Of a stretch of 38,048 nucleotides of DNA, positions 5,308 to 29,421 are shown in pieces. Origin of the DNA: Methylophilaceae bacterium (GTDB lineage Bacteria > Pseudomonadota > Gammaproteobacteria > Burkholderiales > Methylophilaceae); assembly GCA_011391175.1 (NCBI GenBank), contig JAABQZ010000010.1:1-38048 (forward strand). The letters are read 5' to 3'. The position numbers and the translations under genes are program-made. Under the pieces are notes generated by a model. The model was not told the DNA's origin. It ran no database searches and was given only the letters and a program-made list of their open reading frames with translations. Position 1 is the stretch's first letter; every line of letters begins with the position of its first letter.

Positions 5308-5373
5308 GTATAACCTTTTTAGTGTGCTCTTATTTGAATGTAAATCAGAGTTTAAGTTTTAAAGTTTACCCTT

Positions 5374-6030: not shown

Positions 6031-6054
6031 ATAGTGAATTCAGATAGCAGTCTG

Positions 6055-9421: not shown

Positions 9422-10933
<1,512 letters not shown>

Positions 10934-11001
10934 TTAAATATACGACCCCACTTTAAAAGTGTTTAATGTTAAGGTAAAGTAATTATTATTTTATGGTTGG
11001 A

Positions 11002-11014
11002 TAAGTTTTACTTA
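11002..11014. promoter_or_regulatory. Candidate CbbR (LysR-type) operator
   Basis: TAAGT-TTT-ACTTA, a T-N11-A inverted repeat in the cbbL/cbbR divergent intergenic region. Confidence 0.35.
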
Positions 11015-11028
11015 ATTATTGGAGCTCT

Positions 11029-11949: not shown

Positions 11950-11988
11950 ATCATTCACCCACTAATTTTTTTGATAATTTAGTGCATT

Positions 11989-12005
11989 TGCACTTTTTTT
12001 GTGCA
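11989..12005. promoter_or_regulatory. Candidate NtrC enhancer site upstream of nasT
   Basis: TGCAC-TTTTTTT-GTGCA, a perfect palindrome in 5-nt arms with the 17-bp geometry of the NtrC consensus, centred about 120 bp upstream of the predicted sigma54 start site. Confidence 0.6.
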
Positions 12006-12092
12006 CGCCATAGTTTGATGCACAAATAAAGCACCCTAGCCAAACGTAATATTTACTCAATAAAATCAATCATATAATTTAATAAACACACA

Positions 12093-12108
12093 TGGCACGG
12101 CATTTGCT
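12093..12108 (+). promoter_or_regulatory. Sigma54 (RpoN) promoter of nasT
   Basis: TGGCACGGCATTTGCT matches the TGGCACG-N4-TTGCW consensus, with exactly 10 nt between the GG and GC dinucleotides. Confidence 0.8.
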
Positions 12109-12119
12109 AGCGCTTAGTC

Positions 12120-12698
12120 ATGTTAAAAGTGATGATTATTGATAATGACATCAAACGTAGCAAACCGTTGAAGCAATCACTAATTGATAATGGGTTTGAG
12201 GTAGTGGCTCATGTTGAAAATACGGTAAATTTAGAAGCGAAGTGTTGTGAGGTAAAGCCAGATATTGTCATTATCGATACAGAGTCGCCTTCTCGCGACA
12301 CTTTAGAGAATATTTGCGTGATGACCATGAATGATTCGCGTCCAGTGGTGATGTTTACGCATGATGGTGATAAAGAGAAAATTAAAATTGCTACACAGGC
12401 TGGTGTAAGTGCTTATGTAGTGGGCGATATTCCTAGTGAAAGGCTAATACCAGTGATAGATGCGGCAATAGCGAGGTTTGAAGAGTTTAAAAGTTTACGT
12501 TCTGAACTCAACATGGCAAATCTTAAGTTGGATGAGCGTAAAGTGATTGAGCGCGCAAAAGGCTTGATGATGCGACAACGCCAAATTGATGAAGAAGAAG
12601 CGTACAGTTTATTGCGCAATATGGCGATGAAAAAAAATATGCGATTAGCAGATTTATCGCACCAACTAATTGAAGCAGCAAAAATGTTAATTGTTTAA
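12120..12698 (+). CDS. nasT: ANTAR-domain response regulator (NasT-like antiterminator)
   Basis: 192 aa; receiver domain LKVMIIDND...PDIVIIDTESPSRDTLENI and C-terminal ANTAR ERAKGLMMRQRQIDEEEAYSLLRNMAMKKNMRLADLSHQLIEAAKM; immediately upstream of nrtABD. Confidence 0.92.
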   Translation: MLKVMIIDNDIKRSKPLKQSLIDNGFEVVAHVENTVNLEAKCCEVKPDIVIIDTESPSRDTLENICVMTMNDSRPVVMFTHDGDKEKIKIATQAGVSAYVVGDIPSERLIPVIDAAIARFEEFKSLRSELNMANLKLDERKVIERAKGLMMRQRQIDEEEAYSLLRNMAMKKNMRLADLSHQLIEAAKMLIV

Positions 12699-12714
12699 AT
12701 GCGTTAAGTAGTAA

Positions 12715-12769
12715 GCTTGCCGCCCAACGATGGGCAAGCAAGTTGTAATTACCGTGCCAAAGCTGGCAT
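12715..12769 (+). ncRNA. Two-hairpin ANTAR target RNA in nrtA leader
   Basis: P1: GCTT(gcc)GCCC-AACGAT-GGGCAAGC with hexaloop AACGAT (12726-12731). P2: GTGCC-AAAGCT-GGCAT with hexaloop AAAGCT (12759-12764). Both loops have A at position 1 and G at position 4, the published ANTAR-binding signature; 14-nt linker. Confidence 0.8.
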
Positions 12770-12789
12770 AAATTTTTGTAATAAAAGAC

Positions 12790-12840
12790 AAAGGTGTCTT
12801 AGTAACGAGGTTAATCCCTCGTTGTTAAGGCGCTTTTTTT
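12790..12840 (+). terminator. Regulated intrinsic terminator (attenuator) before nrtA
   Basis: AAAGGTGTCTTAGTAACGAGG-TTAATC-CCTCGTTGTTAAGGCGCTTT folds into a continuous stem of about 21 bp including G-U pairs, running directly into a T-tract. Confidence 0.85.
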
Positions 12841-12872
12841 ATGTGTAAAAACTTTGAGTAAAAGGAAACAAT

Positions 12873-14177
12873 ATGCGAGATCAAGATAAAACCGATATTA
12901 CAGCTGTTAACACAATCGATACTTCCAGCACTGTCGATGCTAGCCGTCGTCAGTTTTTCAGACAAAGCATTGCAGGTGCTTTTGGTGCCGCAGCTGCCTT
13001 AAACATCATGCCAACAGGGATTAAAAATATGGCTCATGCAGCAGGTTCAGATGCACCAGAAATCACGGAAGTTAAAATCGGCTTTATCCCGCTGACTGAT
13101 TGCGCGCCAATTGTAGTGGCTGCCCAAATGGGATTTGATAAAAAGTATGGCATTAAAATTACCCCGTCTAAAGAAGCCTCTTGGGCGGGCGTGCGCGACA
13201 AGCTTATCAATGGTGAGCTGCAAGGCGCGCATGTGTTGTACGGCATGATGTATGGCTCTCAGCTTGGTATCGGCGGTCAGCAAAAAGACATGGCGGTGCT
13301 CATGGCGCTTAACAACAATGGCCAAGGCATTACGCTTTCTAATCAACTTAAAGACAAAGGCGTAAAAGATGGTCGTAGTTTAAAACGTTTAATCAGTAAC
13401 GAAAATCGTGATTACACGTTTGCACAAACCTTCCCTACTGGCACCCATGCCATGTGGCTGAATTATTGGCTTGCAGCTAATGATATTGACCCAATTAAAG
13501 ACGTTAAAAACATTGTGGTGCCGCCACCGCAAATGGTGGCCAATATGCGTATTGGCAATATGGATGGCTACTGTGTAGGGGAGCCTTGGAATGCGCGCGC
13601 TATCAATGATAACGTTGGATTCAGTGTTGCCACTTCACAAGATATTTGGGTTGACCACCCAGAAAAAGTACTGGGCACTACCGCTGAATTTGTTGCCAAA
13701 AATCCAAACACAGCACGCGCCATGGTTGCCGCAGTGTTAGAAGCATGTCGTTATATTGATGCAACTGAAAATCGTGCCAAAGTTGCTAAATTAATTTCTG
13801 GAAAATCTTATGTAAATGCGCCAGAGGATGTCATTGGTGGCCGGTTTGTAGGCAATTACGACAACGGCATTGGTAAGAAATGGAAAGATCCGAATTTCAT
13901 GAAATTCTACAATGATGGCGAAGTGAATTTTCCCTATCTGTCAGATGGCATGTGGTTCTTAACACAGCATAAACGTTGGGGCTTGTTGAAATCCGATCCA
14001 GATTATTTGGCAGTAGCTACTAAAGTGAATCAAATTAAATTGTATAGCGAAGCTGCCGCCATGGCTGGTGTGCCAGTCCCTAAAAACAACATGCGTAGCA
14101 GCAAGTTAATCGATGGCGTGGTATGGGATGGCAAGAACCCAGCTGCCTACGCGGCAGGATTCAAAATTAAAGCTTAA
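12873..14177 (+). CDS. nrtA: Nitrate ABC transporter substrate-binding protein, Tat-type signal
   Basis: 434 aa; SRRQFFRQSIAGAFGAAAAL twin-arginine signal; VKIGFIPLTDCAPIVVAAQMGFDKKYGI, NrtA/CmpA-like. Confidence 0.92.
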   Translation: MRDQDKTDITAVNTIDTSSTVDASRRQFFRQSIAGAFGAAAALNIMPTGIKNMAHAAGSDAPEITEVKIGFIPLTDCAPIVVAAQMGFDKKYGIKITPSKEASWAGVRDKLINGELQGAHVLYGMMYGSQLGIGGQQKDMAVLMALNNNGQGITLSNQLKDKGVKDGRSLKRLISNENRDYTFAQTFPTGTHAMWLNYWLAANDIDPIKDVKNIVVPPPQMVANMRIGNMDGYCVGEPWNARAINDNVGFSVATSQDIWVDHPEKVLGTTAEFVAKNPNTARAMVAAVLEACRYIDATENRAKVAKLISGKSYVNAPEDVIGGRFVGNYDNGIGKKWKDPNFMKFYNDGEVNFPYLSDGMWFLTQHKRWGLLKSDPDYLAVATKVNQIKLYSEAAAMAGVPVPKNNMRSSKLIDGVVWDGKNPAAYAAGFKIKA

Positions 14178-14194
14178 GCCTAATGTGAAGACGG

Positions 14195-14213
14195 GGTTAA
14201 CAAGCTGTTAACC
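14195..14213 (+). other. Intercistronic hairpin between nrtA and nrtB
   Basis: GGTTAAC-AAGCT-GTTAACC, perfect 7-bp stem followed by GTTTTAC. Confidence 0.6.
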
Positions 14214-14258
14214 GTTTTACGTCGATACATTTTTTAGATAATACGGAAAGGAAACATC

Positions 14259-15236
14259 ATGAATACGATGCGCTTAAGCAAGAGCTTAATAGACACGTTG
14301 CCGCGTAAGAAAGTGGTAGCGAATGCTACAACTGCGGCTGCCGAAAATGTTCACAAAGAACCTAGCGCCACCTCTACAGAAGCAGAGCTTGTAGAAACAG
14401 AAGTCAAGGCAAAAGTTGCTGACAAACCTTTACCCAAACCTACTGAGCCTAAATCAAAATTAGTGGTCAATATTGAGCAGTTATTAAAGTCCGTGTTGCC
14501 TGCAATATTTGGTTTACTGCTTTTTGTGGGTATCTGGACGTTGATTTCGCACCAATCTCCTAACTTGCCAGGCCCAATGAAAACTTGGGATGCAGCTGTT
14601 ACATTGTTTAGTGATCCATTCTATGACAACGGTCCTAATGATAAAGGCATCGGTTGGAATATTCTCGCCTCGCTTCAACGTGTTTCATTAGGGTTTGGCA
14701 TGGCGGCACTGGTTGGCATTCCTTTGGGATTCATCATCGGTCGTTTTGAATTCGCCAATAAAATGTGTGCTCCCATTATTAGCCTACTGCGTCCTGTATC
14801 GCCTTTGGCTTGGTTACCAATCGGATTATTGGTTTTTAAAGCCGCCAACCCTGCTGCAATCTGGGTGATATTTATCTCAGCAGTTTGGCCGATGATTATC
14901 AACACAGCCGTTGGTGTTAGCAAAGTACCGCAAGACTATATGAACGTGGCCAAAGTGTTGAATTTAAGTGAGTGGAAGATCGTCACTAAAATCTTATTCC
15001 CGTTCGTACTGCCGTACATGATGACAGGTGTGCGTCTATCTATTGGCGTGGCCTGGCTGGTGATTGTAGCGGCAGAAATGCTGACAGGCGGTGTGGGTAT
15101 TGGTTTCTGGGTATGGGACGAATGGAACAACCTTAACGTAGAACACATCATTATTGCCATTTTCATCGTCGGCATTGTCGGCTTGCTACTAGAGCTCATG
15201 TTGACGCAAATCGCAAAACGTTTCAGCTACGAATAA
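14259..15236 (+). CDS. nrtB: Nitrate ABC transporter permease
   Basis: 325 aa; BPD-type permease with EAA-like loop (NVAKVLNLSEWKIVTKILFPFVLPYMMTGVRLSIGVAWLVIVAAEML); N-terminal extension of about 80 aa. Confidence 0.92.
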   Translation: MNTMRLSKSLIDTLPRKKVVANATTAAAENVHKEPSATSTEAELVETEVKAKVADKPLPKPTEPKSKLVVNIEQLLKSVLPAIFGLLLFVGIWTLISHQSPNLPGPMKTWDAAVTLFSDPFYDNGPNDKGIGWNILASLQRVSLGFGMAALVGIPLGFIIGRFEFANKMCAPIISLLRPVSPLAWLPIGLLVFKAANPAAIWVIFISAVWPMIINTAVGVSKVPQDYMNVAKVLNLSEWKIVTKILFPFVLPYMMTGVRLSIGVAWLVIVAAEMLTGGVGIGFWVWDEWNNLNVEHIIIAIFIVGIVGLLLELMLTQIAKRFSYE

Positions 15237-15258
15237 ATCGTCAATTAAGGGGATTGTT

Positions 15259-16095
15259 ATGTCTATCATTGAAAAATCAAATGCTGAAAAATCAGGCAAA
15301 GCCAATACAGAAAAGTATGTGCAGCTTGAAAATGTTGAAATGACCTTCAGCACGAAAAAGGGCGATTTTAATGCGCTCAAAGACGTTAATTTAAGCATTA
15401 AGCAGGGTGAGTTTATCTCCATTATTGGGCATTCTGGATGTGGAAAATCAACTGTGCTTAATTTAATAGCCGGCTTGCTGGTACCGAGTAGTGGCTTTTT
15501 ATTCTGTGCTGGCCGCGAAATTGCAACGCCAGGGCCTGAACGTGCAGTGGTATTTCAAAATCACTCATTATTGCCATGGCTCACTTGTTTTGAAAATGTC
15601 CACTTAGCCGTAGAACGTGTCTTTGGTGGCGAAACAAAAGCGCAACAAGTAGCACGCACTTATGCCGCGCTTGAATTAGTTGGGCTAAGTCATGCAGTAG
15701 AAAAGCGTCCAAATGAAATATCTGGCGGTATGAAACAGCGCGTGGGTATCGCTAGAGCGCTCGCGATGGAACCCAAAGTGCTATTGCTAGACGAGCCGTT
15801 TGGTGCGCTGGACGCTTTAACCCGCGCAGGTTTGCAGGATGAGCTGATGCGTATTATGCAAAAATCTGGCGCAACTGGCGTCATGGTCACGCACGATGTA
15901 GATGAAGCCGTGCTGCTGTCTGACCGGATTGTGATGATGACCAACGGCCCGAGTGCCAGCATAGGTGAGATTCTCACGGTCGACTTACCCTACCCGCGCA
16001 AACGCCTTGAGCTAGCAGAAAACGCTGAATACAACCATCTGCGTTCCGAAGTATTGAAATTCCTATACGAACGCCATGCTAAAAAAGCTGCTTAA
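15259..16095 (+). CDS. nrtD: Nitrate ABC transporter ATP-binding protein
   Basis: 278 aa; Walker A GHSGCGKST, signature SGGMKQRVGIARAL, Walker B VLLLDEPFGALDALTR. Confidence 0.92.
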   Translation: MSIIEKSNAEKSGKANTEKYVQLENVEMTFSTKKGDFNALKDVNLSIKQGEFISIIGHSGCGKSTVLNLIAGLLVPSSGFLFCAGREIATPGPERAVVFQNHSLLPWLTCFENVHLAVERVFGGETKAQQVARTYAALELVGLSHAVEKRPNEISGGMKQRVGIARALAMEPKVLLLDEPFGALDALTRAGLQDELMRIMQKSGATGVMVTHDVDEAVLLSDRIVMMTNGPSASIGEILTVDLPYPRKRLELAENAEYNHLRSEVLKFLYERHAKKAA

Positions 16096-16122
16096 CATTT
16101 TTTTAAATTTAGAAAGAACCTC

Positions 16123-17553
16123 ATGAAAAACGCTAACCATAAATTAAAATTAATCACTGCCTTAATCGCATTATCTGCGGCGGCTCCTATCACCCATGCT
16201 GAAGAAGCGAATGATGTTGTAGAAGATTACACATTGTTAAATTCGATTAAACAAGGCAAATCGCTAAGTAGCGTACGGGCGCGTTATGAAATGGTTGACC
16301 AAGATGGCTTTCAATCAGCGGCAGCCAATGCACCAAAATTGGACGATGCTTATGCCTTTACCACACGCACACTGATCGGTTGGCAAACCGCACCGTTTAA
16401 AAACTTCAGTTTTGGTGCGCAAATTACCGATGTACATGAATTCAACGACGACTTTAATGACCGCCGTGATAACTTGCCAGAGCACAATAATGGTACAGCC
16501 AGTTCAAATGCATTTAAAAGCCAATTTCCAAACATTGTAGATCCAGGCTTTACTGACATCAATCAGCTATTTGTAGAATGGACGGGGATTAAAAATACCA
16601 AACTGAAATTAGGTCGCCAAATTGTTAACTTAGACAATGTACGTTTTATTGGCGACATTGCTTTCCGCCAGAATACGCAAGTATTTGACGGTATTTCTGT
16701 AGTGAATAAAAGTATCCCGAATACTGAAATTTTTGCCTCACAATTTAGTAAAGTACGGCAAGTAAATACCAAATCGCGGGATGGTAATATCAGTTTGCTC
16801 AACGCAAAATATCGTTGGGCACCAACCGAATCACTAGCGGGCTACGCGTATTTGGTTGATGTGGATAACTTAAGTCAAAACAATGGCAATCCTGCTGCAG
16901 TTGGCACTGCAGCACAAGGAGGCAATGGCTTGGGTGCTAGCGATGATTTAGTAAAAACAGCCACCACCGATGCCAGCAGCAAAACCTTTGGCTTGCGTTT
17001 AGATGGCGTGCACATTTTTAACCCAACCTGGAAAGGCTTGTATACAGCCGAATACGCCAAGCAAGACGATTACCGTGGCGGCAGCCCATTGATTGATGCG
17101 CACTACTTTAAAATTGGTGGCGGTGTAGGCTACGACGCATGGTCGCTGCGGATTGATCACGAAAAACTTTCTAGCAACGATGGTCAATATGGATTTCAAA
17201 CACCATTAGGCACGAATCACCTATTTCAAGGCTGGTCAGATCACTTCTTAGCCACGCCACGCCAAGGCATAGAAGATACCTTTATTACGCTTGCAGGTAG
17301 CATCGAAAAAGCCAAGTTACATGCTGAATATCACGTGCTTAAATCGGATGAAGAATTTCAATCGATTGGCAAACTGGGCGATAAATACGGTACAGAGTTT
17401 GATGCCAGCGTCATGTATCCATTTACTGATGCAGTATGGGGCAAGGTTGAGTATGCCAAATTTAATGAAAGCGATGTATACGGCGGTCTGCGTAACGCAG
17501 CACGCAAAGGTGACAAGGAGATCATTTGGGTAACAGCTCAGTTTAGTTTTTAG
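16123..17553 (+). CDS. Outer-membrane porin, alginate-export family, putative nitrate channel
   Basis: 476 aa; signal peptide KLITALIALSAAAPITHA, beta-barrel pattern, KLGRQIVNLDNVRFIGDIAFRQNTQVFDGISV, C-terminal WVTAQFSF. Confidence 0.75.
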   Translation: MKNANHKLKLITALIALSAAAPITHAEEANDVVEDYTLLNSIKQGKSLSSVRARYEMVDQDGFQSAAANAPKLDDAYAFTTRTLIGWQTAPFKNFSFGAQITDVHEFNDDFNDRRDNLPEHNNGTASSNAFKSQFPNIVDPGFTDINQLFVEWTGIKNTKLKLGRQIVNLDNVRFIGDIAFRQNTQVFDGISVVNKSIPNTEIFASQFSKVRQVNTKSRDGNISLLNAKYRWAPTESLAGYAYLVDVDNLSQNNGNPAAVGTAAQGGNGLGASDDLVKTATTDASSKTFGLRLDGVHIFNPTWKGLYTAEYAKQDDYRGGSPLIDAHYFKIGGGVGYDAWSLRIDHEKLSSNDGQYGFQTPLGTNHLFQGWSDHFLATPRQGIEDTFITLAGSIEKAKLHAEYHVLKSDEEFQSIGKLGDKYGTEFDASVMYPFTDAVWGKVEYAKFNESDVYGGLRNAARKGDKEIIWVTAQFSF

Positions 17554-17582
17554 CCCCTAACTACTAAAGCATTAAAACACCT

Positions 17583-17628
17583 GCTCTGTAAGCCAATATC
17601 CATCAGGCTTACAGGGCACTAATTTTTT
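17583..17628 (+). terminator. Intrinsic terminator after the porin gene
   Basis: GCTCTGTAAGCC-AATATCCATCA-GGCTTACAGGGC, 12-bp stem with one G-U pair, followed by ACTAATTTTTTAT. Confidence 0.75.
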
Positions 17629-17673
17629 ATCGTGATTAATGTGCGTTATTGTTTAAACAATATATTCAAGCAA

Positions 17674-17721
17674 TGCACCGTTTTAGGTCACAGGCACGGC
17701 ACGCCTGCCTTTTTTGGTGCA
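17674..17721. promoter_or_regulatory. Candidate NtrC half-sites upstream of nirB
   Basis: TGCACC (17674-17679) and GGTGCA (17716-17721) as inverted half-sites 42 bp apart, about 90-140 bp upstream of the predicted sigma54 start. Confidence 0.4.
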
Positions 17722-17785
17722 AATTGTTTAGGCTGTTGATACACAAATAGCATAAGACTTTATTTATATTGATTATTTTATATTG

Positions 17786-17801
17786 GCACACATATTGCAA
17801 A
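17786..17801 (+). promoter_or_regulatory. Sigma54 (RpoN) promoter of the nirB operon
   Basis: TGGCACACATATTGCA; 10-nt GG-to-GC spacing matches the RpoN -24/-12 element; ATG of nirB 37 nt further downstream. Confidence 0.75.
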
Positions 17802-17838
17802 AGTAATACGAAATATTCTTAAGTTTGGATCGACAACA

Positions 17839-20283
17839 ATGCAAAAAATGAAGTTAGTAGTGGTTGGTAATGGCATGGCCGGCATGCGTGTGGTAGAAGA
17901 ATTACTGAAAATCGCGCCAGATATTTACGACATTACCGTATTTGGTGATGAGCCCTACCCTAATTACAACCGTATTATGCTGTCACCGGTGTTGGCAAAC
18001 GAGCAAACCATTAACGATATTATCTTGAATACGCGCGAGTGGTATGCCGAGAATAATATTACGCTGTATACCAGTGCACGCATCAACAAGATTGACCGTA
18101 AGAATCGTGTGGTTTATGCGGAAGATGGCGCCAGTGCGGAATACGACAGGCTTTTATTAGCCACTGGCTCTAAGCCGTTTATGTTGCCGATTGAAGGCGC
18201 TAATTTAGAGGGCGTGATTGGTTATCGTGATATTAAAGACACCAATGACATGATAGACGCCGCAAAGAAACATAAGCATGCGGTGGTAATTGGTGGTGGC
18301 CTACTTGGGCTTGAAGCCGCCAATGGCTTAAAAATTCAAGGCATGGAAGTCACGGTAATTCACCGTAACGAGTGGTTGCTAGAAAAGCAACTAGACAAAA
18401 CTGCAGGGAAAATGCTGCAAAAAAACCTAGAAGCCAAAGGCTTGAATTTTCAGTTAAAACAGAATACTAAAGAACTTACAGGTGACGGTGCTGATGGAAA
18501 ATCAGGTCGCGTCAACACTATCCACTTTACTGACGGCTCTAGCTTGCCTGCTGATTTAGTGGTGATGGCGGTTGGCATTCGTCCAAATTTTAGTTTAGCT
18601 GAATCGGCAGGTATTTACTGCAATAAAGGTATTGTGGTGAATGACACCATGCAAACCTACGACCCGCGCGTGTATGCAGTGGGCGAATGCGTTGCACACC
18701 GCGGCATCTCTTATGGCCTGGTTGCACCCTTGTTCGAAATGGCCAAAGTATGTGCCACCCATTTGGCCAATTTTGGTATTGGTCAATATAAAGGTTCAGT
18801 CACTTCTACCAAATTAAAAGTGACTGGTGTTGATTTATTCAGTGCAGGCGACTTTGGCAACATTGATGATGGTCGCGAAGAAATTGTTTTGCACGATGCA
18901 GTGGGCGGGGTTTACAAAAAACTCGTCATCAAAGATGACAAAATCATCGGTAGCGTGCTTTATGGAGATACCGCCGATGGCGCTTGGTATTTCAAAATGC
19001 TGCGTGATGGTAAACCCATCCACGAAATTCGCGATAGCCTGATGTTCGGCCAAGACTCACTTGGCAACACTGGCCATCAAGGCCAAGACAAAGCAGCGGC
19101 CATGACCAACGAAATGGAAGTATGCGGCTGTAATGGCGTGTGCAAAGGCACTATTGTGAAAGCCATTCAAGACCAAGGCTTATTTACCATTGACGATGTT
19201 AAAAAACAAACCAAAGCTGGCTCCAGTTGTGGCAGTTGCGTTGGCTTAGTTGAGCAAATTTTAGCCTCAACACTAGGCGGCGGCTATGCGCCACCCTCTA
19301 GTAGCAAAGCTGTTTGCGGTTGTTCCGATAAAAACCATGAAGAAGTACGGGCAGAAATTCGCACACACAAATATTTAAATATTCCCGATGCCATGAAAGG
19401 TATGGGCTGGCGCACGCCAAATGGTTGCGCCACTTGCAGGCCTGCATTGAATTATTACTTGCTCTCCACTTGGCCGCATGAGGCGGTGGATGATCCGCAA
19501 TCTCGCTTTATTAATGAGCGGGTGCACGCCAACATTCAAAAGGATGGTACCTATTCAGTGATTCCGCGCATGTATGGCGGCGTGACGAGTTCTGACCAAC
19601 TACGTAAAATTGCTGACGTGGCCGACAAGTACGCCGTACCGATGGTAAAAGTCACCGGTGGGCAACGGATTGACTTGTTAGGCGTGAAGAAAGAAGACTT
19701 GGTCGACATGTGGAAAGACCTCGACATGCCATCCGGCTATGCCTATGCCAAAGGTATTCGTACGGTTAAAACCTGTGTAGGTTCGGAATTCTGTCGCTTC
19801 GGTACACAAAACTCTACCCAAATGGGCATTGATATTGAAAAAGCATTTGATCATATGTGGGCGCCCCATAAAGTGAAATTCGCTGTCTCGGGCTGCCCTA
19901 GAAACTGCGCCGAATCTGGCATTAAGGATGTGGGCATTATTGGTGTAGATTCTGGATGGGAAATTTATGTCGGCGGTAACGGTGGCATTAAAACTGAAGT
20001 TGCGCAGTTTCTGTGTAAAGTCAAAACCTCAGATGAGGTACTGGAGTATTCAGGTGCGTTTATCCAAATATACCGCGAAGAAGCAAGGTATTTGGACAGA
20101 ACCGTACATTGGATAGAACGCGTGGGCTTGGAATATGTAAAACAACGCATATTAGAGGATGCTGAAGGCCGCAAAGCCGCTTATGAACGTTTACTCTATG
20201 CACTACAAGGCGCGGTAAACCCTTGGGCCGAGCGTGTAGAAAAACGCGAGCAGCACAAAGAGTTTGAAACGATTATCGTCTAA
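17839..20283 (+). CDS. nirB: Nitrite reductase (NADH) large subunit
   Basis: 814 aa; N-terminal FAD/NAD oxidoreductase (VVVGNGMAGMRVVEELL), BFD-like Cys cluster (CGCNGVCKGTI...SSCGSCVGLVEQIL), sulfite/nitrite reductase motifs (TCVGSEFCRFGTQNS, AVSGCPRNCAESGIKDVGI). Confidence 0.96.
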   Translation: MQKMKLVVVGNGMAGMRVVEELLKIAPDIYDITVFGDEPYPNYNRIMLSPVLANEQTINDIILNTREWYAENNITLYTSARINKIDRKNRVVYAEDGASAEYDRLLLATGSKPFMLPIEGANLEGVIGYRDIKDTNDMIDAAKKHKHAVVIGGGLLGLEAANGLKIQGMEVTVIHRNEWLLEKQLDKTAGKMLQKNLEAKGLNFQLKQNTKELTGDGADGKSGRVNTIHFTDGSSLPADLVVMAVGIRPNFSLAESAGIYCNKGIVVNDTMQTYDPRVYAVGECVAHRGISYGLVAPLFEMAKVCATHLANFGIGQYKGSVTSTKLKVTGVDLFSAGDFGNIDDGREEIVLHDAVGGVYKKLVIKDDKIIGSVLYGDTADGAWYFKMLRDGKPIHEIRDSLMFGQDSLGNTGHQGQDKAAAMTNEMEVCGCNGVCKGTIVKAIQDQGLFTIDDVKKQTKAGSSCGSCVGLVEQILASTLGGGYAPPSSSKAVCGCSDKNHEEVRAEIRTHKYLNIPDAMKGMGWRTPNGCATCRPALNYYLLSTWPHEAVDDPQSRFINERVHANIQKDGTYSVIPRMYGGVTSSDQLRKIADVADKYAVPMVKVTGGQRIDLLGVKKEDLVDMWKDLDMPSGYAYAKGIRTVKTCVGSEFCRFGTQNSTQMGIDIEKAFDHMWAPHKVKFAVSGCPRNCAESGIKDVGIIGVDSGWEIYVGGNGGIKTEVAQFLCKVKTSDEVLEYSGAFIQIYREEARYLDRTVHWIERVGLEYVKQRILEDAEGRKAAYERLLYALQGAVNPWAERVEKREQHKEFETIIV

Positions 20284-20349
20284 TCTCACATCAAATTACC
20301 ACATTAAATTACTACTTTAAGTTTATAGAGCATCAATTTAGGAAAGTTT

Positions 20350-21561
20350 ATGAAATCTAGTTTTTGGAAAGCTGGCCACACCCCAACCTTACTGTCCTCT
20401 TTTTTATACTTCGATTTAAGCTTCATGGTGTGGGTGCTATTAGGCCCACTAGCGGTACAAATTGCCACTGATTTAAACCTAACGCCTGCGCAAAAAGGCT
20501 TGATGGTTGCCACTCCTGTGCTGGCGGGTGCACTATTGCGTATTGTAATGGGCGTACTGGTTGACCAAATCAAGCCGAAAAATGCAGGCACCATCGGTCA
20601 AATTATTGTAATTACCAGCCTGCTCATCGCTTGGCTGCATGGCCTACAAACCTTTCAGCACACATTGATGCTGGGTATTGGATTAGGGTTTGCAGGTGCA
20701 GCATTCGCTGTTGCATTGCCTTTAGCCAGTCGCTGGTATCCGCCAGAACACCAAGGCACCGCTTTGGGTATTGCTGGCGCAGGTAATTCAGGCACCGTAT
20801 TTGCTGCTTTATTTGCGCCTAGTTTGGCGGTTGCTTATGGTTGGAATAATGTATTTGGTCTAGCGCTAATTCCACTGGGAATTGCATTGGCGGTATATAT
20901 GATATTTGCTAAGGATAGTCCAGACACCCCGCCTGCTAAATCTTTAAGCCAATATTTAGCTATTTTGAAAGATAAAGACGCTTGGTGGTTTATGTTTTTT
21001 TACAGTGTGACTTTTGGTGGATTTGTGGGTCTGGCTTCAAGCCTCACCATCTACTTTAACGATTTATATAGCCTAGGCCCTGTGGTCGCGGGTTATTGTA
21101 CGGCGGCATGTGTATTTGCAGGCTCATTAGTGCGCCCTATTGGTGGCATGATTGCCGATCGTATTGGCGGCATTCGCACGCTACTTGCCATGTATGCAAT
21201 TGCAGCTATATTATTGGTAGTGATGAGCTTTGGTCAACCAACTTACCAATTAGCACTGGCTATTATTGTGCCAGTCATGGCCGTATTAGGTATGGGCAAT
21301 GGCGCAGTATTCCAATTAGTGCCGCAACGCTTTCGTAAAGAAATCGGCGTAATGACTGGTTTAGTGGGCATGGCCGGTGGCGTGGGTGGTTTCTACTTGG
21401 CAGCAAGTTTGGGTTACATCAAACAAGCGACGGGTAACTACCAAATTGGTATCTTGATTTTTGCAGGTCTATCACTACTGGCTATGATTGGCTTAAGTGG
21501 CGTAAAAACACGCTGGAGAACAACCTGGGGTAGCGCGACAGCAACATCTGCAAAAGTGTAA
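20350..21561 (+). CDS. narK: MFS nitrate/nitrite transporter (NarK/NasA type)
   Basis: 403 aa; FDLSFMVWVLLGPLAVQIATDLNLTPAQKGLMVATPVLAGALLRI; GNGAVFQLVPQRF and GGVGGFYL signatures. Confidence 0.93.
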   Translation: MKSSFWKAGHTPTLLSSFLYFDLSFMVWVLLGPLAVQIATDLNLTPAQKGLMVATPVLAGALLRIVMGVLVDQIKPKNAGTIGQIIVITSLLIAWLHGLQTFQHTLMLGIGLGFAGAAFAVALPLASRWYPPEHQGTALGIAGAGNSGTVFAALFAPSLAVAYGWNNVFGLALIPLGIALAVYMIFAKDSPDTPPAKSLSQYLAILKDKDAWWFMFFYSVTFGGFVGLASSLTIYFNDLYSLGPVVAGYCTAACVFAGSLVRPIGGMIADRIGGIRTLLAMYAIAAILLVVMSFGQPTYQLALAIIVPVMAVLGMGNGAVFQLVPQRFRKEIGVMTGLVGMAGGVGGFYLAASLGYIKQATGNYQIGILIFAGLSLLAMIGLSGVKTRWRTTWGSATATSAKV

Positions 21562-21587
21562 ACTAGCAACATGTCGCTTAAGTTTGT

Positions 21588-23282
21588 ATGTCTTTAGAAT
21601 TTGAAATTGGCCAATCCAGCCAAACTGGTCCTCGCGCACGTAACGAAGACTATGTAGGCGTTGTCACGCCTAGCAATGAGCAGCTCCGTATTAAAGGTGC
21701 ACTGATTGCTGTGGCTGACGGCGTAAGCGGCAATGCCGGTGGCGGCGAAGCCTCAGAGATGACGGTACGCACAATTACTGCCGACTACTACGCGACTCCA
21801 GACACTTGGGAACCTCCTACCGCACTTGAAAAAGTAATTATCGCGGCGAATCGCTGGCTAATTTCACAAGCAAGTGCCAATCGTGATTTGGCGGGTATGG
21901 CCACAACACTGTCACTGGTTGTTTTACGTGGTCAGCGCTATTATTTAGCACATGTAGGTGACACACGTATATATTTGTTGCGCGATGGTGTGCTTAAGCA
22001 ACTTACCACCGACCATGTCTGGGATAGGCCTGATATGCGTCATGTGTTAAAACGCGCAGTCGGGCTGGATGCACACTTAGCCATCGATTTTGCTGAAGGT
22101 GCACTGCAAGCAGGTGATGTGTTTACGTTGCTTAGTGATGGTGTATGGGAAACCTTAGGAGATAAGGCGATACATGAAAGCTTATTAAAGTTTAATAGTA
22201 CGCAAATGGTAGCAGACCACTTAACCAAAACTGCGCTAGACAAACAAAGTGCAGATAATTCTACTGCAGTCGTCATTAAAATTAACGCACTTGGCGCAGA
22301 CACACTGTCTGAGCGCATTGCTGGAGGAAAACATCTAGCCTTGCCAGCAAAACTTAGCAACGGTGAATTGATTGATGATTTTGAAGTGGTTGAATTACTA
22401 CATGAATCGCGTGCGAGTTTATTGTATAAAGTTCGCAAAACGGATACTAAACAGCTTTTTGTACTTAAAACTTTACAACCTTTGTTAGCCAATGACGTAG
22501 AAAGTATTAACGGCTTGCTTAACGAGGAGTGGCTTGGTAAGCGCGTAGTTTCACAATTTATTCCGCAAGTGTTACCACTGTCAATGGAGAAGCGTAGCAA
22601 GCTTTACTTTGTAATGAGTTGGTTTGAGGGTGCAACTTTGCAGCAACGCCTGAACAGTGGTCATTATTTTACCGCAGCTGGTACAGCAAAGATTGCCATT
22701 GATATGCTGCGCGGCATCGGTGCGTTACATCGGCTTAGCATTATTCATCGAGACATTAAACCTGCCAATATTCATCAGGCCAACGACCAACGCTTACGTA
22801 TTTTAGATTTAGGTGTGGCGCTGAGTACCAGCAGCGAAACTTTAGCTGTGACACAAAATCCCGGTACGCCCAGTTTTATGGCGCCAGAACTGTTTGAAGG
22901 TAACAGCGCCAACGCTCAGACCGATATTTACGCAGCGGGCGTGACACTTTATCATTTGCTAACGCGCAAATACCCGTATGGCGAAATTGAACCGTTTCAG
23001 CACCCAAAGTTTGGAGAGCCCACGCCACTGACGCGATATCGCCCCGACATCCCATACTGGCTAGAAAATATCGTGCTTAAGGCGGTTGCGCGTGAGCCAA
23101 AAGCAAGATTTGAAACCGCAGAGGAAATGCTGCATGCGCTAGAAGTGGGGGAACTCAAGCCCATTCTAGCACCCGCACGCACCCCCTTAATTGCACGTGC
23201 AAGACTGGTAAAATGGCAGTGGATAGCCATTTTTTCTTTTGTTATAAATGTATTATTGATTTATTTATTGTTAGTTTCATAA
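21588..23282 (+). CDS. Bifunctional PP2C-type phosphatase / Ser-Thr protein kinase with C-terminal TM helix
   Basis: 564 aa. PP2C motifs: RARNEDYVG, VADGVSGNAGGGEASE, HVGDTRIYLLRDG, LLSDGVWETLGD, DNSTAVVI. Kinase motifs: VLKTL Lys, IIHRDIKPANI, LDLGVAL, GTPSFMAPELFEG, TDIYAAGVTLYHLLT. TM: WIAIFSFVINVLLIYLLLVS. Confidence 0.92.
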   Translation: MSLEFEIGQSSQTGPRARNEDYVGVVTPSNEQLRIKGALIAVADGVSGNAGGGEASEMTVRTITADYYATPDTWEPPTALEKVIIAANRWLISQASANRDLAGMATTLSLVVLRGQRYYLAHVGDTRIYLLRDGVLKQLTTDHVWDRPDMRHVLKRAVGLDAHLAIDFAEGALQAGDVFTLLSDGVWETLGDKAIHESLLKFNSTQMVADHLTKTALDKQSADNSTAVVIKINALGADTLSERIAGGKHLALPAKLSNGELIDDFEVVELLHESRASLLYKVRKTDTKQLFVLKTLQPLLANDVESINGLLNEEWLGKRVVSQFIPQVLPLSMEKRSKLYFVMSWFEGATLQQRLNSGHYFTAAGTAKIAIDMLRGIGALHRLSIIHRDIKPANIHQANDQRLRILDLGVALSTSSETLAVTQNPGTPSFMAPELFEGNSANAQTDIYAAGVTLYHLLTRKYPYGEIEPFQHPKFGEPTPLTRYRPDIPYWLENIVLKAVAREPKARFETAEEMLHALEVGELKPILAPARTPLIARARLVKWQWIAIFSFVINVLLIYLLLVS

Positions 23283-23292
23283 GGTTGAATAT

Positions 23293-23622
23293 ATGAGTAA
23301 TTGGGTTAAAGTTGCGCCGTTTGATGAGATTCCTAAATTAGGTGCCCGCGTGGTACGCACCAAAGATAGCGAACAAAAAGAGTTTGATATTGGCGTATTT
23401 CGTACGGAAGATGATCGCATTTTCGCGATCAATAACACGTGTCCGCACAAGGGCGGGCCTTTATCACAAGGCATTGTCTATGGTGACAAAGTCGCTTGCC
23501 CAATGCATTCTTGGAAAATAAGTTTGGTGGATGGTAAAGCGGAAGAACCCGACGTAGGTGAGACTGCCTGCTTTAATACCAAAATTGAAGATGGTTTTGT
23601 TTATTTGGAATTAAAAGCTTAA
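23293..23622 (+). CDS. nirD: Nitrite reductase small subunit NirD (Rieske-type)
   Basis: 109 aa; NTCPHKGGPLSQGIVYGDKVACPMHSWKISLVDG with complete C-x-H ... C-x2-H motif. Confidence 0.92.
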   Translation: MSNWVKVAPFDEIPKLGARVVRTKDSEQKEFDIGVFRTEDDRIFAINNTCPHKGGPLSQGIVYGDKVACPMHSWKISLVDGKAEEPDVGETACFNTKIEDGFVYLELKA

Positions 23623-23630
23623 GCTATTTT

Positions 23631-26396
23631 ATGGTTGTAAATTTAATAGAAAGCAAATTCACAAAATCCACCTGCTGCTACTGTGGTGTTGGCTGCGGCG
23701 TGATTATTGAATCCAAGGAAGAATCAGGGCTCGACAAAATTATTCATGTAAAAGGTGACCCTGACCACCCTGCCAATTTTGGTAGGCTTTGTACTAAGGG
23801 CTCAACTTTACATTTAAGCGTAAAGCCAGACAACCGTGCGCTTTACCCTGAAATGCGTTTAACGCGCGAAGCACCGCGCAAGCGTGTTTCGTGGGATGTA
23901 TCGCTTGACTATTTAACAGAGAAGTTTGCGCAAACCATTGAAAAATATGGCCCAGATTCAGTCGCATTTTATATTTCAGGGCAACTGCTCACCGAAGATT
24001 ATTATGTGTTTAACAAGCTTGCCAAAGGCTTGATTGGCACTAACAATGTTGATACAAACTCAAGGCTATGCATGTCTTCTGCGGTGGCTGGCTACAAGGC
24101 CACGCTGGGTGCAGATGCACCGCCAGCCTGTTACGAAGATATTGACTACACTGATTGCTTATTTATTGCAGGTAGCAACACAGCATTTGCGCATCCGATT
24201 ATCTTCCGTCGCATCGAAGATGCCAAAGCTAAAAATCCGAATCTGAAAATTATCGTGGTTGATCCACGTAAAACCGACACCGCACAAACAGCAGACCTAC
24301 ATTTAGCCATTTTGCCTGGCACCGATGTCGCCTTATTTAATGGCATGTTGCATGTGATGCTATGGGAAGGCTTGCTAGATATGGCTTACATCAATGCACA
24401 TACCAATGGCTTTGATGTGTTAAAAGATACTGTGCGCGAATACACCCCCAAAATGGTGGCCGATATTTGCGGCATCAAGGAAAGTGACATCATCACTGCT
24501 GCCAAATGGTTTGGTAAAGGGCCCAGCCTGTCTATGTATTGCATGGGCTTAAATCAAAGTATCCACGGTACCGAAAAAAATGCTGCGCTGATTAATTTAC
24601 ACCTTGCGACTGGGCAGATTGGCAAGCTTGGCGCAGGTCCATTTTCACTTACTGGACAGCCCAACGCGATGGGTGGTCGCGAGGTTGGCGGCATGGCAAA
24701 TTTACTCTCTGCACATCGAGATTTAGCGAACGCCGAACATCGTGCAGAAATCGCCAAGCTTTGGGGGGTAGACGATGTGCCTGAAACCCCAGGCAAAACC
24801 GCAGTAGAAATGTTTGACGCTGTAAAAAATGGGGAGATTAAAGCGATTTGGATTGCTTGTACCAATCCGGCGCACTCAATGCCAGATTTGAATGGCGTGT
24901 TGGAATCGTTAAACAATGCGGAGTTGGTTGTGGTGCAAGATGCATATAACAATACCGATACTTGCGCTTATGCCGATGTACTTTTACCCGCCAGCACTTG
25001 GGGTGAAAAAGAAGGCACCGTGACTAATTCTGAGCGACGCATTACACGGGTTAATCCTGCTATCACAACTCCTGCAGAGGCGCGCCACGATTGGGCGATT
25101 ATGGTGGATTTTGCGCAACGTTTAGAAAAGCGTCTATCAAAAAAACATACGAACCTATTTCCCTTTAAAACGACAGAAGATATTTTTAATGAACACCGCG
25201 AAACAACGCGTGGCAGGGACTTGGATATTACTGGTTTAAGCTATGCGCTACTCAACGAAAAAGGCCCACAACAATGGCCTTTTAAAGAAGGTGAATCGAC
25301 AGGCTTAGCACGCTTATATGCCGATGGCGTATTTCAAAAAACAGATGGCAAAGCGCAATTTATTAATACAGTATACAAAGGCACTGCAGACAAAACTGAC
25401 GCACGCCACCCGCTACATTTACTCACTGGGCGTTTACGCGATCAATGGCATGGCATGAGCCGTACCGGCAATGTAGCGCAGCTATTCAATCATGCAGAAG
25501 AGCCAGCAATACAAATGAGCAGCGATGACATGATGCGTCGTAACATTAAAAATGGCGACATTGTAAAAGTCCAAAATAAGCGCGGCAACTTGGTATTACC
25601 CGCGCAAATGAGTGATGAAGTAAAGCCCGCGCAAACCTTTATTGCCATGCACTGGGGTAGCCAATTCATGCACGGCTTAGGCGTGAACGCGCTGATGCCG
25701 CCCAATTTTGATAAAACCTCTAAACAACCAGAGTTAAAACACACAGCCATTAAGCTTGAAAAACTCGAATTGCCTTGGCGCATGACCATACTGCGCAGCT
25801 GTCAGGACTTAACTTTATTAACCAAAGTGCGCGCGCTAATGAAGCAATTTACTTACGCAAGTTGTGGGCTATTTGGGCGTGAAACTGACGCTAACAAAGC
25901 GGGTTTGTTGATTCTGCGTGCCGCACATGAAACAGCGCCAGCGCGTGAGTTAATTGAGAAAATTGATGCTATTTTAGGCATGACAGATGATTCACCGTGC
26001 CTGAATTATAATGATGCCAAGCGTGACATTAGTAAGCGTATTTTAGTAGAAAACCATGACGGCAAAGCTGAGGTAACAGGGGTGCGCCTGATGGGTGAAA
26101 CGCTGGCGACAGATTGGCTAAAAGAAGTCATGACCACGGGCCAGTTTGGCGATGAAGCCCATTACAAAGCATTCAGCCGCTGGGCGTTAGCACCAATATC
26201 TGCACCGCCTTCAGGTCAAGTTGGGCGTGGGAAAATTGTGTGTAACTGTTTGGACATTTCGCAAAACGAAATTGTAGAAAACATACAATTGGGTGCCGAT
26301 TTAATTACCCTGCAAAACAAACTTAAATGTGGCACAGAGTGTGGGTCGTGCATGCCTGAGCTAAAACGTTTAGTGCAAACGCACGGTAAATTCTAA
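23631..26396 (+). CDS. nasA: Assimilatory nitrate reductase catalytic subunit
   Basis: 921 aa; CCYCGVGCGV 4Fe-4S motif, GRLCTKGSTLH, molybdopterin oxidoreductase core (FIAGSNTAFAHPI, GGREVGGMANLLSAHR), C-terminal BFD-like CNCLDISQNEI...CGTECGSCMPELKRLV. Confidence 0.94.
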   Translation: MVVNLIESKFTKSTCCYCGVGCGVIIESKEESGLDKIIHVKGDPDHPANFGRLCTKGSTLHLSVKPDNRALYPEMRLTREAPRKRVSWDVSLDYLTEKFAQTIEKYGPDSVAFYISGQLLTEDYYVFNKLAKGLIGTNNVDTNSRLCMSSAVAGYKATLGADAPPACYEDIDYTDCLFIAGSNTAFAHPIIFRRIEDAKAKNPNLKIIVVDPRKTDTAQTADLHLAILPGTDVALFNGMLHVMLWEGLLDMAYINAHTNGFDVLKDTVREYTPKMVADICGIKESDIITAAKWFGKGPSLSMYCMGLNQSIHGTEKNAALINLHLATGQIGKLGAGPFSLTGQPNAMGGREVGGMANLLSAHRDLANAEHRAEIAKLWGVDDVPETPGKTAVEMFDAVKNGEIKAIWIACTNPAHSMPDLNGVLESLNNAELVVVQDAYNNTDTCAYADVLLPASTWGEKEGTVTNSERRITRVNPAITTPAEARHDWAIMVDFAQRLEKRLSKKHTNLFPFKTTEDIFNEHRETTRGRDLDITGLSYALLNEKGPQQWPFKEGESTGLARLYADGVFQKTDGKAQFINTVYKGTADKTDARHPLHLLTGRLRDQWHGMSRTGNVAQLFNHAEEPAIQMSSDDMMRRNIKNGDIVKVQNKRGNLVLPAQMSDEVKPAQTFIAMHWGSQFMHGLGVNALMPPNFDKTSKQPELKHTAIKLEKLELPWRMTILRSCQDLTLLTKVRALMKQFTYASCGLFGRETDANKAGLLILRAAHETAPARELIEKIDAILGMTDDSPCLNYNDAKRDISKRILVENHDGKAEVTGVRLMGETLATDWLKEVMTTGQFGDEAHYKAFSRWALAPISAPPSGQVGRGKIVCNCLDISQNEIVENIQLGADLITLQNKLKCGTECGSCMPELKRLVQTHGKF

Positions 26397-26473
26397 AGGT
26401 CAAACGCGCGATAAATATTAAAAAGCACATACGTATTTAAAAGTAAGCACCTGATATAAACAAAAAATGATGT

Positions 26474-26893
26474 TTATTCATCCTCTGCTTGAATATCTCC
26501 ATCGTTAGCTTGTTTTTTAAGTACGCGATACATAATAAAACCACCAACGAGCAACAACAAAAATGGCCCAAACCATAGTATCGCTGTGACATTATTCACA
26601 GGCGGACGGTAACGCACAAAATCACCATAGCGCGCGACTAAATAGTCGACAATCTCTTGATCGCTTTTACCAGCGCGCATTTGGGTACGAATTTCTTTAC
26701 GCAAATCTTCGGCCAAAGGTGCATCAGAATCTGCCAGCGTAGAGTTTTGGCAAACCAAGCAACGTAACTCTTGTGACATCGCTTTTAAGCGCGCCTCTAA
26801 CGCAGGATCATCACTGATTGGCTTGGCTTCGCCTGCATATGCAGTAGCAAAAAACTGCATAAAAAGAAAAATTAGAATCATCAGTTTTTTCAT
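26474..26893 (-). CDS. ccmH: Cytochrome c-type biogenesis protein CcmH/CycL
   Basis: 139 aa; signal peptide, LRCLVCQNSTLADSDAPLAEDLRKEIRTQMRAGKSDQEIVDYLVARYGDFVRYRPP. Confidence 0.95.
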   Translation of the reverse strand: MKKLMILIFLFMQFFATAYAGEAKPISDDPALEARLKAMSQELRCLVCQNSTLADSDAPLAEDLRKEIRTQMRAGKSDQEIVDYLVARYGDFVRYRPPVNNVTAILWFGPFLLLLVGGFIMYRVLKKQANDGDIQAEDE

Positions 26894-26905
26894 TTTAATG
26901 ACACC

Positions 26906-27439
26906 TTAAACGTCCAGCTCTTTAAGTAGCGGCACCACTTTTGTCAGCAAAATTTCTGGTGTAAGCGGACCAATATGTTTATAACGAATAATGCCAGCCT
27001 TATCAATTAAATAAGTTTCCGGCACACCATAGACGCCGTAATCAATGCCTATCTTGCCATCGGTATCGGTAATGACTTTGTTGTAAGGGTTACCCATGGC
27101 AATCAATACCTGTTGCGCATCAGCATCTACATCTTTATAAGCCAAACCATGCATTACAATGCGCTTGGTTTGTGCCATGTCCATCAGTAGCGGGTGTTCA
27201 TCTCGACAGGCCGCACACCAAGACGCCCACACGTTCAGTAGCCAGACTTGGCCTTTCATATCTGCACTGTTAAATTGTTTGCCTGCCTCACCTAATATCG
27301 GCGCGGTAAATGCAGGCGCTGGCTTACCTACCAATGGCGACGGCACTTCACGCGGATTTAAAAATAAGCCTTTGGTCAAAAAACCAACTGCCACTAAAAA
27401 TAAAATGAGTGGGATTAAAAACTTTAGTGTTCTATTCAT
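26906..27439 (-). CDS. ccmG: Thiol:disulfide interchange protein CcmG/DsbE
   Basis: 177 aa; GQVWLLNVWASWCAACRDEHPLL thioredoxin-like CxxC, YGVYGVPETYLID. Confidence 0.94.
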   Translation of the reverse strand: MNRTLKFLIPLILFLVAVGFLTKGLFLNPREVPSPLVGKPAPAFTAPILGEAGKQFNSADMKGQVWLLNVWASWCAACRDEHPLLMDMAQTKRIVMHGLAYKDVDADAQQVLIAMGNPYNKVITDTDGKIGIDYGVYGVPETYLIDKAGIIRYKHIGPLTPEILLTKVVPLLKELDV

Positions 27440-27447
27440 GGTGAGAT

Positions 27448-29421
27448 TTAAAAAACTTCTTCGGCTTTACTGGTTAGGTTTTTATTCGCGATACGATAGC
27501 GCTTATCCAGCAACGCCAATAAACCACCTAACGCCATAATAATGCAGCCAGCCCATATCCATTGCACAAAGGGTTTAATGTAAATACGCACACTCCATGC
27601 ACCTTTTTCTAGCGGCTCGCCAAGCGATACATATAAATCTTTAAATACACCAGGCTCAATGTCCGCCTCGGTCATGGTGGCACCTTGCACAGGATAAAAG
27701 CGTTTTTCTGGGTACAGTAGGGCAATTTGCTTGTCATCTTCTGTCACAACAAACTTACCTTGTGATGAAATATAGTTAGGGCCTTGTACTTTCTGCGCGC
27801 CTTTAAAAATAAAGGACAAATCACCTATTTTTGCAATATCGTTCACTTCCATGCGCAAATCTTGCTCGCTCTCATAGCCTTTAACTAAAGTCACACCCAA
27901 AACAAACACACCTACGCCTAAATGTGCCAATAACATGCCGTAAAAAGCCAACGGAATAGTTTTTAAATTTTCAACCAAACTCACATTAGCCAGTTGTTTG
28001 GTTTTAATTCTATTTTGCAGCAAAATTAAAGTGGTACTTACGATCCAAGCCCCCATAAATACACCTACAGCGGCCATCAATGAGATTTTTCCCAAAACTG
28101 ATGGCACCAGTAAAGCAGATACAATACTTATCACGGCAGCAAGTTTTAAGCGTGTTCCTATCTCCGGAATGCTGGCTTTTTTCCACTTTGCCAGTGGCCC
28201 CAAGCCCATTAAAAATAAACCCGGTGCCATAATCGCGACAAATACCGCATCGAAATAAGGGGGCCCAACTGATATTTTGCCGCCACCCAGTGCGTCAATC
28301 AATAATGGATACATGGTGCCAAGCAGCACCGAGCCAGCAGCTACCGCCAGCACTACGTTATTAGCCAGTAAGAAAGATTCGCGCGACACTACGTCGAACT
28401 TTTCTCCCAAGCCCACATTGGGTGCACGCAAGGCAAATAGCAATAAAGCGCCACCAATCACAATTACTAAATATAGCAAAATGAATAAACCGCGACTTGG
28501 GTCGGTGGCAAACGCATGCACCGATGTCAGCACGCCCGAGCGCACTAAAAATGTACCCAGTAAGCTTAATGAAAACGCACAGATAGACAGTAATACGGTC
28601 CACACTTTAAACGCACCACGCTTCTCAGTAACCGCGAGTGAGTGTATCAATGCCGTGCCCACTAACCACGGCATAAACGATGCATTTTCGACCGCATCCC
28701 AAAACCACCAACCGCCCCAACCTAGCTCGTAGTAGGCCCACTTGCTGCCAAAAGCAATACCCAAGGTTAAGAACATCCACGCCACTGTTGTCCATGGCCG
28801 CGTCCAGCGTGCCCAAGCGTTATCTAGGCGACCATCTAACAATGCCGCAATGGCAAATGCAAATGCAACGGAGAAGCCAACATACCCCATATACAGCACG
28901 GGCGGATGAAACACCATACCAGGGTCTTGTAGTAGTGGATTTAAATCACGGCCATCTAGGGCGGCAGGGATAAGTCTATCGAATGGGTTAGATGTGAATA
29001 AAATAAACGCTAAAAAGCCAACACTGACTAAGCCCATTACAGCAATTAGCCTGATTCTAAAAGTGTCGGGTAAATTATTTGCAAACAGGGTGACCGCAAT
29101 GGTCCATATTGACAAAATAGCCACCCATAACAACATGGAGCCTTCATGTCCGCCCCATACTGCGGCTAGGCGATACATGGTAGGTAATTGCGAGTTGGAA
29201 GTGGAAGCCACATACAGCACTGAGAAGTCGTTGGCATAAAACGAATACATTAAAACAACAAATGACACCAAAATAAGTAATGATTGGGCTCTGGCTGTTG
29301 GTACAGCTAAATTCATCAATGTGGTTTTGTTTCTCCATGCACCCACTAAAGGTAACGTCCCTTGAATGATGGCAAAAATGAATGCGAGGATAAGCGAAAG
29401 CTCGCCAATTGCAGGAATCAT
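27448..29421 (-). CDS. ccmF: Heme lyase CcmF/NrfE
   Basis: 657 aa; WGGHEGSMLLWV, FHPPVLYMGYVGFSV, GWGGWWFWDAVENASFMPWL (WWD motif). Confidence 0.96.
   Translation of the reverse strand: MIPAIGELSLILAFIFAIIQGTLPLVGAWRNKTTLMNLAVPTARAQSLLILVSFVVLMYSFYANDFSVLYVASTSNSQLPTMYRLAAVWGGHEGSMLLWVAILSIWTIAVTLFANNLPDTFRIRLIAVMGLVSVGFLAFILFTSNPFDRLIPAALDGRDLNPLLQDPGMVFHPPVLYMGYVGFSVAFAFAIAALLDGRLDNAWARWTRPWTTVAWMFLTLGIAFGSKWAYYELGWGGWWFWDAVENASFMPWLVGTALIHSLAVTEKRGAFKVWTVLLSICAFSLSLLGTFLVRSGVLTSVHAFATDPSRGLFILLYLVIVIGGALLLFALRAPNVGLGEKFDVVSRESFLLANNVVLAVAAGSVLLGTMYPLLIDALGGGKISVGPPYFDAVFVAIMAPGLFLMGLGPLAKWKKASIPEIGTRLKLAAVISIVSALLVPSVLGKISLMAAVGVFMGAWIVSTTLILLQNRIKTKQLANVSLVENLKTIPLAFYGMLLAHLGVGVFVLGVTLVKGYESEQDLRMEVNDIAKIGDLSFIFKGAQKVQGPNYISSQGKFVVTEDDKQIALLYPEKRFYPVQGATMTEADIEPGVFKDLYVSLGEPLEKGAWSVRIYIKPFVQWIWAGCIIMALGGLLALLDKRYRIANKNLTSKAEEVF

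Follow-up and report, generated by a model that had tools for sequence, protein, structure and literature searches.

A membrane-tethered kinase/phosphatase fusion encoded beside NarK: a candidate post-translational switch of nitrate uptake

In the usual account, bacterial nitrate assimilation is controlled through transcription and antitermination (NasS-NasT). A kinase gene, PA1782, presumably also lies in the nas cluster of Pseudomonas aeruginosa, beside the nitrate transporter gene, and NCBI annotates such proteins as "bifunctional protein-serine/threonine kinase/phosphatase." NarK and the plant transporter NRT2.1 are both members of one broad family of nitrate/nitrite porters. PA1782 has been listed as a predicted Ser/Thr kinase (PMC8560001). 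In the literature searched, which mostly lacked subscription papers, neither PA1782 nor a kinase-transporter pairing was the subject of a functional study, and no substrate, partner, or phosphosite was given for PA1782. In Pseudomonas pseudoalcaligenes, the nas cluster is listed with narT (BN5_2121) and nirBD-nasA (BN5_2123-2125), and the portion of the source available does not mention BN5_2122 (PMC6627978), which, by its position, could be the same kinase as the one described here. In plants, phosphorylation of Ser501 in the C-terminal tail of NRT2.1 inactivates the transporter, and the PP2C phosphatase CEPH reactivates it (PMC10944928).

The locus described here lies in a window of 38,048 nucleotides (the whole stretch of DNA analyzed) from a Methylophilaceae bacterium, and all features named below are on the forward strand. 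The ORF at 21588 to 23282 encodes a protein of 564 amino acids, termed PPK, in which a PP2C phosphatase domain, a Ser/Thr kinase domain, and a C-terminal transmembrane (TM) helix follow one another. In Pfam, residues 18 to 204 matched PP2C_2 (PF13672, 57.6 bits) and residues 277 to 508 matched Pkinase (PF00069, 116.9 bits), both above the gathering cut-offs. Together with conservation, these matches placed the PP2C domain at residues about 1 to 234 (21588 to 22289) and the kinase domain at residues about 262 to 519 (22371 to 23144). The single TM segment predicted by hydropathy (maximum, 2.66) and by the structural model, which forms a helix there, is at the C terminus (residues about 540 to 564; 23205 to 23276). 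The AlphaFold model (mean pLDDT, 80) contains both globular domains and the C-terminal helix, with a pTM of 0.56 that makes the placement of the domains relative to each other unreliable. Its best fold matches in the PDB were the PP2C phosphatases tPphA, PppA, and PstP and the kinases PknB and Stk1. No PASTA domain was found in the Pfam scan, no sensor domain was recognized in PPK, and its periplasmic part is almost nil. A chance ORF is excluded, as a near full-length homolog is present in 45 of 100 genomes of the family. The genome of the window also carries, far from PPK, adjacent separate PP2C and kinase genes of ~320 amino acids each (G000 contig C30, 4735 to 6089; L003 and L004).

PPK is part of the gene run nirB-narK-PPK-nirD-nasC, in which successive genes are separated by 66, 26, 10, and 8 bp. 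The run consists of nirB, encoding the nitrite reductase large subunit (17839 to 20283; TIGR02374, 945 bits); narK, encoding a major facilitator superfamily nitrate/nitrite transporter of about 403 amino acids, the proposed substrate of PPK (20350 to 21561); PPK itself; a gene for a nirD-type Rieske protein (23293 to 23622; PF00355); and a nasC-like assimilatory nitrate reductase gene (23631 to 26396; molybdopterin oxidoreductase matches, with 499 bits to the NasC model). Upstream, profile matches identified further nitrate genes, for a NasT-like ANTAR regulator, nrtA-, nrtB-, and nrtC-like ABC transporter components, and an outer-membrane porin (12120 to 17553). An Rfam scan of positions 10500 to 27500 found no known RNA elements. 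The best NCBIfam match of the window's NarK was TIGR00886 (289.1 bits; E = 5e-86), below the curated cut-off of 311.7 bits, so this protein is NarK-like and falls slightly outside that subfamily cut-off; in the PDB, its profile matched Escherichia coli NarK (E = 8e-25). The original prediction, made from the letters of the DNA, had described a PP2C domain, a Ser/Thr kinase domain, and a C-terminal TM helix encoded between narK and nirD, and the ORF, Pfam, TM, and gene-order results all matched this description.

The same prediction had proposed that the placement of the gene is likely conserved and had named NarK, NrtB, NirB, NasA, and NasT as substrates to check. The placement is indeed conserved, and its constant part is the pairing with a transporter rather than membership in a reductase operon. 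In public genomes, narK was directly upstream of PPK in all 80 homologous loci (59 to 98% identity). Of 100 genomes sampled from the family, 45 contained strong matches to both PPK and this narK and 55 contained neither, with no mismatches. The reductase genes nirB, nirD, and nasC are absent beside some PPK-narK loci. Most loci have nirD downstream of PPK, with other genes found there in Gallionella, Burkholderiales, and some Methylophilus and Methylobacillus strains. Across wider samples, adjacent PPK and narK genes are codirectional (median gap, ~43 bp), divergent (L143, L198, L224, L234, L237, L241, and L242), or convergent (L136, L190, L192, and L240). Since the reductase genes are dispensable neighbors and the transporter is constant, NarK is favored over the reductases as the target, and among the proposed substrates the genomic data single out NarK, with the C-tail residues Thr391/Thr392 as the candidate site. 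Regulation of a soluble operon product, namely, NirB, the nitrate reductase, or NasT, would fit the position of PPK between narK and nirD within one gene run, but we consider it very unlikely because the genes for such products come and go as neighbors while the transporter stays.

A broader survey returned 218 PPK homologs, which were thinned to 87 below 72% identity. A transporter gene was found near 80 of these 87, encoding a short NarK in 31 cases, a long NarK in 22, a formate/nitrite channel (FNT) in 24, and an amino-acid permease (APC) in 3; a short-NarK partner was accepted up to 9 kb from PPK, a distance on which a few loci rely. The kinase tree splits according to transporter class. 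Paralogs of the FNT class lie beside the channel gene, often with cyanase, and those of the APC class lie beside a permease gene together with ethanolamine ammonia-lyase. In some Methylophilus loci (L153 and L172), PPK occurs twice, following narK and again following the FNT/cyanase genes. Clusters of an FNT channel (PF01226), a PPK paralog, and cyanase were seen in L131, L151, L153, L157, L160, L161, L165, L168, L172, L258, L260-L263, and L269, and this gene content suggests a kinase-controlled channel, with cyanate or nitrite as its possible substrate. L120, L129, and L133 have PPK homologs near an amino-acid permease gene, with a EutB gene in between in L120. L155 and L156 represent a deep PPK branch with no recognized transporter neighbor and are flanked by inorganic pyrophosphatase-like and phosphofructokinase-like genes.

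The catalytic residues of both domains of PPK are intact. The PP2C metal-site residues Asp21, Asp44, Asp184, and Asp223 were invariant in 120/120 NarK-linked homologs. In the kinase domain, which has the motifs HRDIKPAN (387 to 394), DLG (407 to 409), and APE (432 to 434), residues Glu313, Asp389, Asn394, Asp407, Gly409, and Glu434 were invariant in the same 120 homologs, and Lys294 was present in 118. The glycine-rich loop, which the original prediction had called degenerate, is unusual: in the P-loop (LLHESRASLLYKV), the first two glycines are replaced. The replaced segment (residues 270 to 284, LLHESRASLLYKVRK; 22395 to 22439) is still modeled by AlphaFold as a beta hairpin, and several of its residues were near-invariant in NarK-linked homologs (Arg275 in 117/120, Ser277 in 111/120, and Tyr280 in 116/120). 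Because relatives share the odd loop, it is a conserved variant and not a product of local decay. These first glycines are missing alike in the NarK, long-NarK, and FNT classes, and most kinases of the FNT and long-NarK clades are of the non-RD type. Both features would suit a pseudokinase that docks the PP2C domain on the transporter, with dephosphorylation as the only real activity. We regard this alternative as improbable, given the conservation of Lys294, Glu313, Asp389, Asn394, Asp407, Gly409, and the Gly-Thr/APE segment. Both domains of PPK look active, judged by their residues, and the predicted union of opposing activities in one membrane-anchored protein gains support from the intact catalytic residues and from domain models resembling solved PP2C and kinase structures.

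A candidate site of action was found in the cytosolic C-tail of NarK. In NarKs encoded with PPK, TM12 is immediately followed by the motif RWRTTWG (residues 388 to 394; 21511 to 21531) and a short tail; the peptide holding the Thr pair, the candidate phosphosite Thr391/Thr392, is KTRWRTTWGSATATSAKV. Although the model predicts disorder in the tail (pLDDT under 50 starting at residue 391), Thr391, Thr392, Trp393, and Gly394 were invariant in 38 sequences, and such conservation within a disordered segment typically marks a short recognition motif. Where the genome lacks PPK, NarKs of comparable identity instead have RRHWG, RAVWP, RATWT, QNKWG, RARWT, RLHWA, or RKTWP. The motif is degraded in five of seven lineages without PPK. 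RTTW is kept in the other two, represented by G271, which is closely related to a genome with PPK, and by G470 and G515, which belong to the same genus; these exceptions could reflect recent losses of PPK. In G271, the place expected for PPK after narK is taken by an ORF similar to membrane sensor proteins (L148, about 4967 to 6400). G804 has PPK elsewhere in its genome and keeps RTTWG. Within family f213, PPK and RTTWG occur together in G749, and both PPK and the Thr pair are missing from G485, G672, and G731. The variant RWTRTW accompanies PPK in three Burkholderiales-like genomes (G206, G656, and G827) belonging to the order of the window. At E ≤ 1e-8, no PPK-like protein was found in 9 of 10 genomes without PPK beside NarK, and the tenth gave only separate kinase and PP2C-like matches.

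The association between PPK and the tail was evaluated in 55 non-redundant NarKs, 44 with PPK and 11 without, the latter being a small sample. Thr392 was present in 44/44 NarKs with PPK versus 5/11 without, and the motif (RWRTTW or close variants) in 44/44 versus 2/11. A Pagel-type test of correlated evolution, on a tree built without the NarK tail, gave p = 2.5e-4 for Thr392 and p = 9e-6 for the motif, the latter value being optimistic because the motif was defined after inspection. Multiplied by the 29 columns that are conserved with PPK and variable without it, the single-column value for Thr392 becomes about 0.007. Among loci fetched once the motif was known, 5/5 linked and 7/8 unlinked cases fitted the pattern; G470, the one that did not, shares its genus with G515, an exception seen earlier. 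This co-loss with the tail motif, adjacency in three orientations, and differing transporter partners make it highly improbable that PPK merely hitchhikes with narK and acts elsewhere in the cell, although operons do hold genes together and the gaps here are short.

Of the 29 columns, no other Ser/Thr column ranks above Thr392 (second) and Thr391 (third), and Asp208 and Arg329 rank first and fourth. NarK residues 208, 213, 214, and 329 (within 20350 to 21561) lie near the cytosolic face and could form a docking surface. The co-variation of Asp208, Trp213, Phe214, and Arg329 with PPK, about as strong for Asp208 and Arg329 as for the Thr pair, together with the lack of RTTW in the FNT and long-NarK classes, would also fit a model in which the transporter is the target by another route, either because a different cytosolic loop is phosphorylated or because the RTTWG tail only docks PPK. 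We consider this model unlikely, though worth weighing; the two Thr columns lead all Ser/Thr columns, and the basic residues ahead of them, within a disordered tail, fit a kinase site. In the FNT class, no discriminating tail motif was found: TH[VIY][RK]T occurs in all linked copies seen and also in most unlinked ones. An equivalent FNT phosphosite was therefore dropped, as copies lacking the kinase have much the same tail, and the Thr-tail proposal is limited to short NarK. The long-NarK tail has a conserved LPDGTVQMI, with few unlinked copies for comparison.

On balance, we favor, with moderate confidence, the proposal that PPK is the dedicated kinase/phosphatase of the adjacent NarK and acts reversibly on its C-tail, likeliest at Thr391/Thr392, to set nitrate uptake. 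PPK would be held beside NarK by its single C-terminal TM helix. Its kinase domain would phosphorylate the cytosolic NarK tail, most likely at Thr391/Thr392 in RWRTTWG, its own PP2C domain would strip the phosphate, and the balance of the two activities would set nitrate uptake. Sequence and model analysis supplies the architecture, the intact catalytic residues, the coupling to transporters, and the co-variation of the tail motif; phosphorylation, its site, its sign, and the input are inferred from these. The behavior of NRT2.1, which is switched off by Ser501 phosphorylation and on by CEPH, suggested the sign: by this analogy, uptake probably falls on phosphorylation and recovers through the phosphatase. 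The input to PPK is probably cytosolic, or is the state of the transporter itself, because PPK lacks a recognizable sensor domain and extends hardly at all into the periplasm. Paralogs in the other clades would act likewise on transporters of other nitrogen compounds. If correct, this proposal describes a fused writer and eraser that acts as a fast post-translational valve on nitrate entry and is widespread in proteobacteria, and it assigns a likely substrate, with one specific candidate site, to a kinase family that has been an orphan.

Among known systems, three families were compared and rejected as assignments for PPK. It scored 146.2 bits against a cut-off of 450 for the Stk1/PknB PASTA kinases (NF033483), 144.4 bits against 230 for the Stp1/IreP PP2C phosphatases (NF033484), and 125.6 bits against 460 for the anti-phage kinase MAD6; PADLOC matches to anti-phage kinases (MAD6 and PD-T4-6) span the kinase part only, and the context here is nitrate metabolism. 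The PknB/Stk1 kinases and PstP/Stp1/tPphA phosphatases are nonetheless the nearest solved folds to the domains of PPK. They are encoded by separate genes, whereas PPK is a fusion without PASTA or other extracellular sensors and with a different P-loop. PpkA and PppA of type VI secretion likewise form an opposed kinase and PP2C pair, and PppA was among the fold matches, but these are separate proteins in secretion loci, and no such genes were identified beside PPK. PA1782 is the likely closer counterpart: PPK fits a PA1782-like family of PP2C-kinase fusions in carrying both domains in one chain, with full-length homologs, and in keeping the catalytic residues of both, with two P-loop glycines replaced. 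Relative to PA1782, the transporter pairing and the candidate site are new here.

More broadly, we tentatively suggest that proteobacterial membrane-tethered kinase/phosphatase fusions, one per adjacent nitrogen-compound transporter (short NarK, long NarK, formate/nitrite channel, or ethanolamine-associated permease), may constitute a general post-translational uptake switch, which in NarK would be RTTWG and convergent with that of plant NRT2.1. As in the Arabidopsis NRT2.1/CEPH system, the target would be a nitrate transporter with a site in the tail that follows its final TM helix (for NarK, a candidate site) and a PP2C eraser. The sequence at Ser501 is unrelated to RWRTTWG, and the plant kinase and phosphatase are separate proteins, whereas PPK fuses both beside the transporter. 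If the proposal holds, PPK and NarK would be the convergent bacterial counterpart of the plant NRT2.1 switch.
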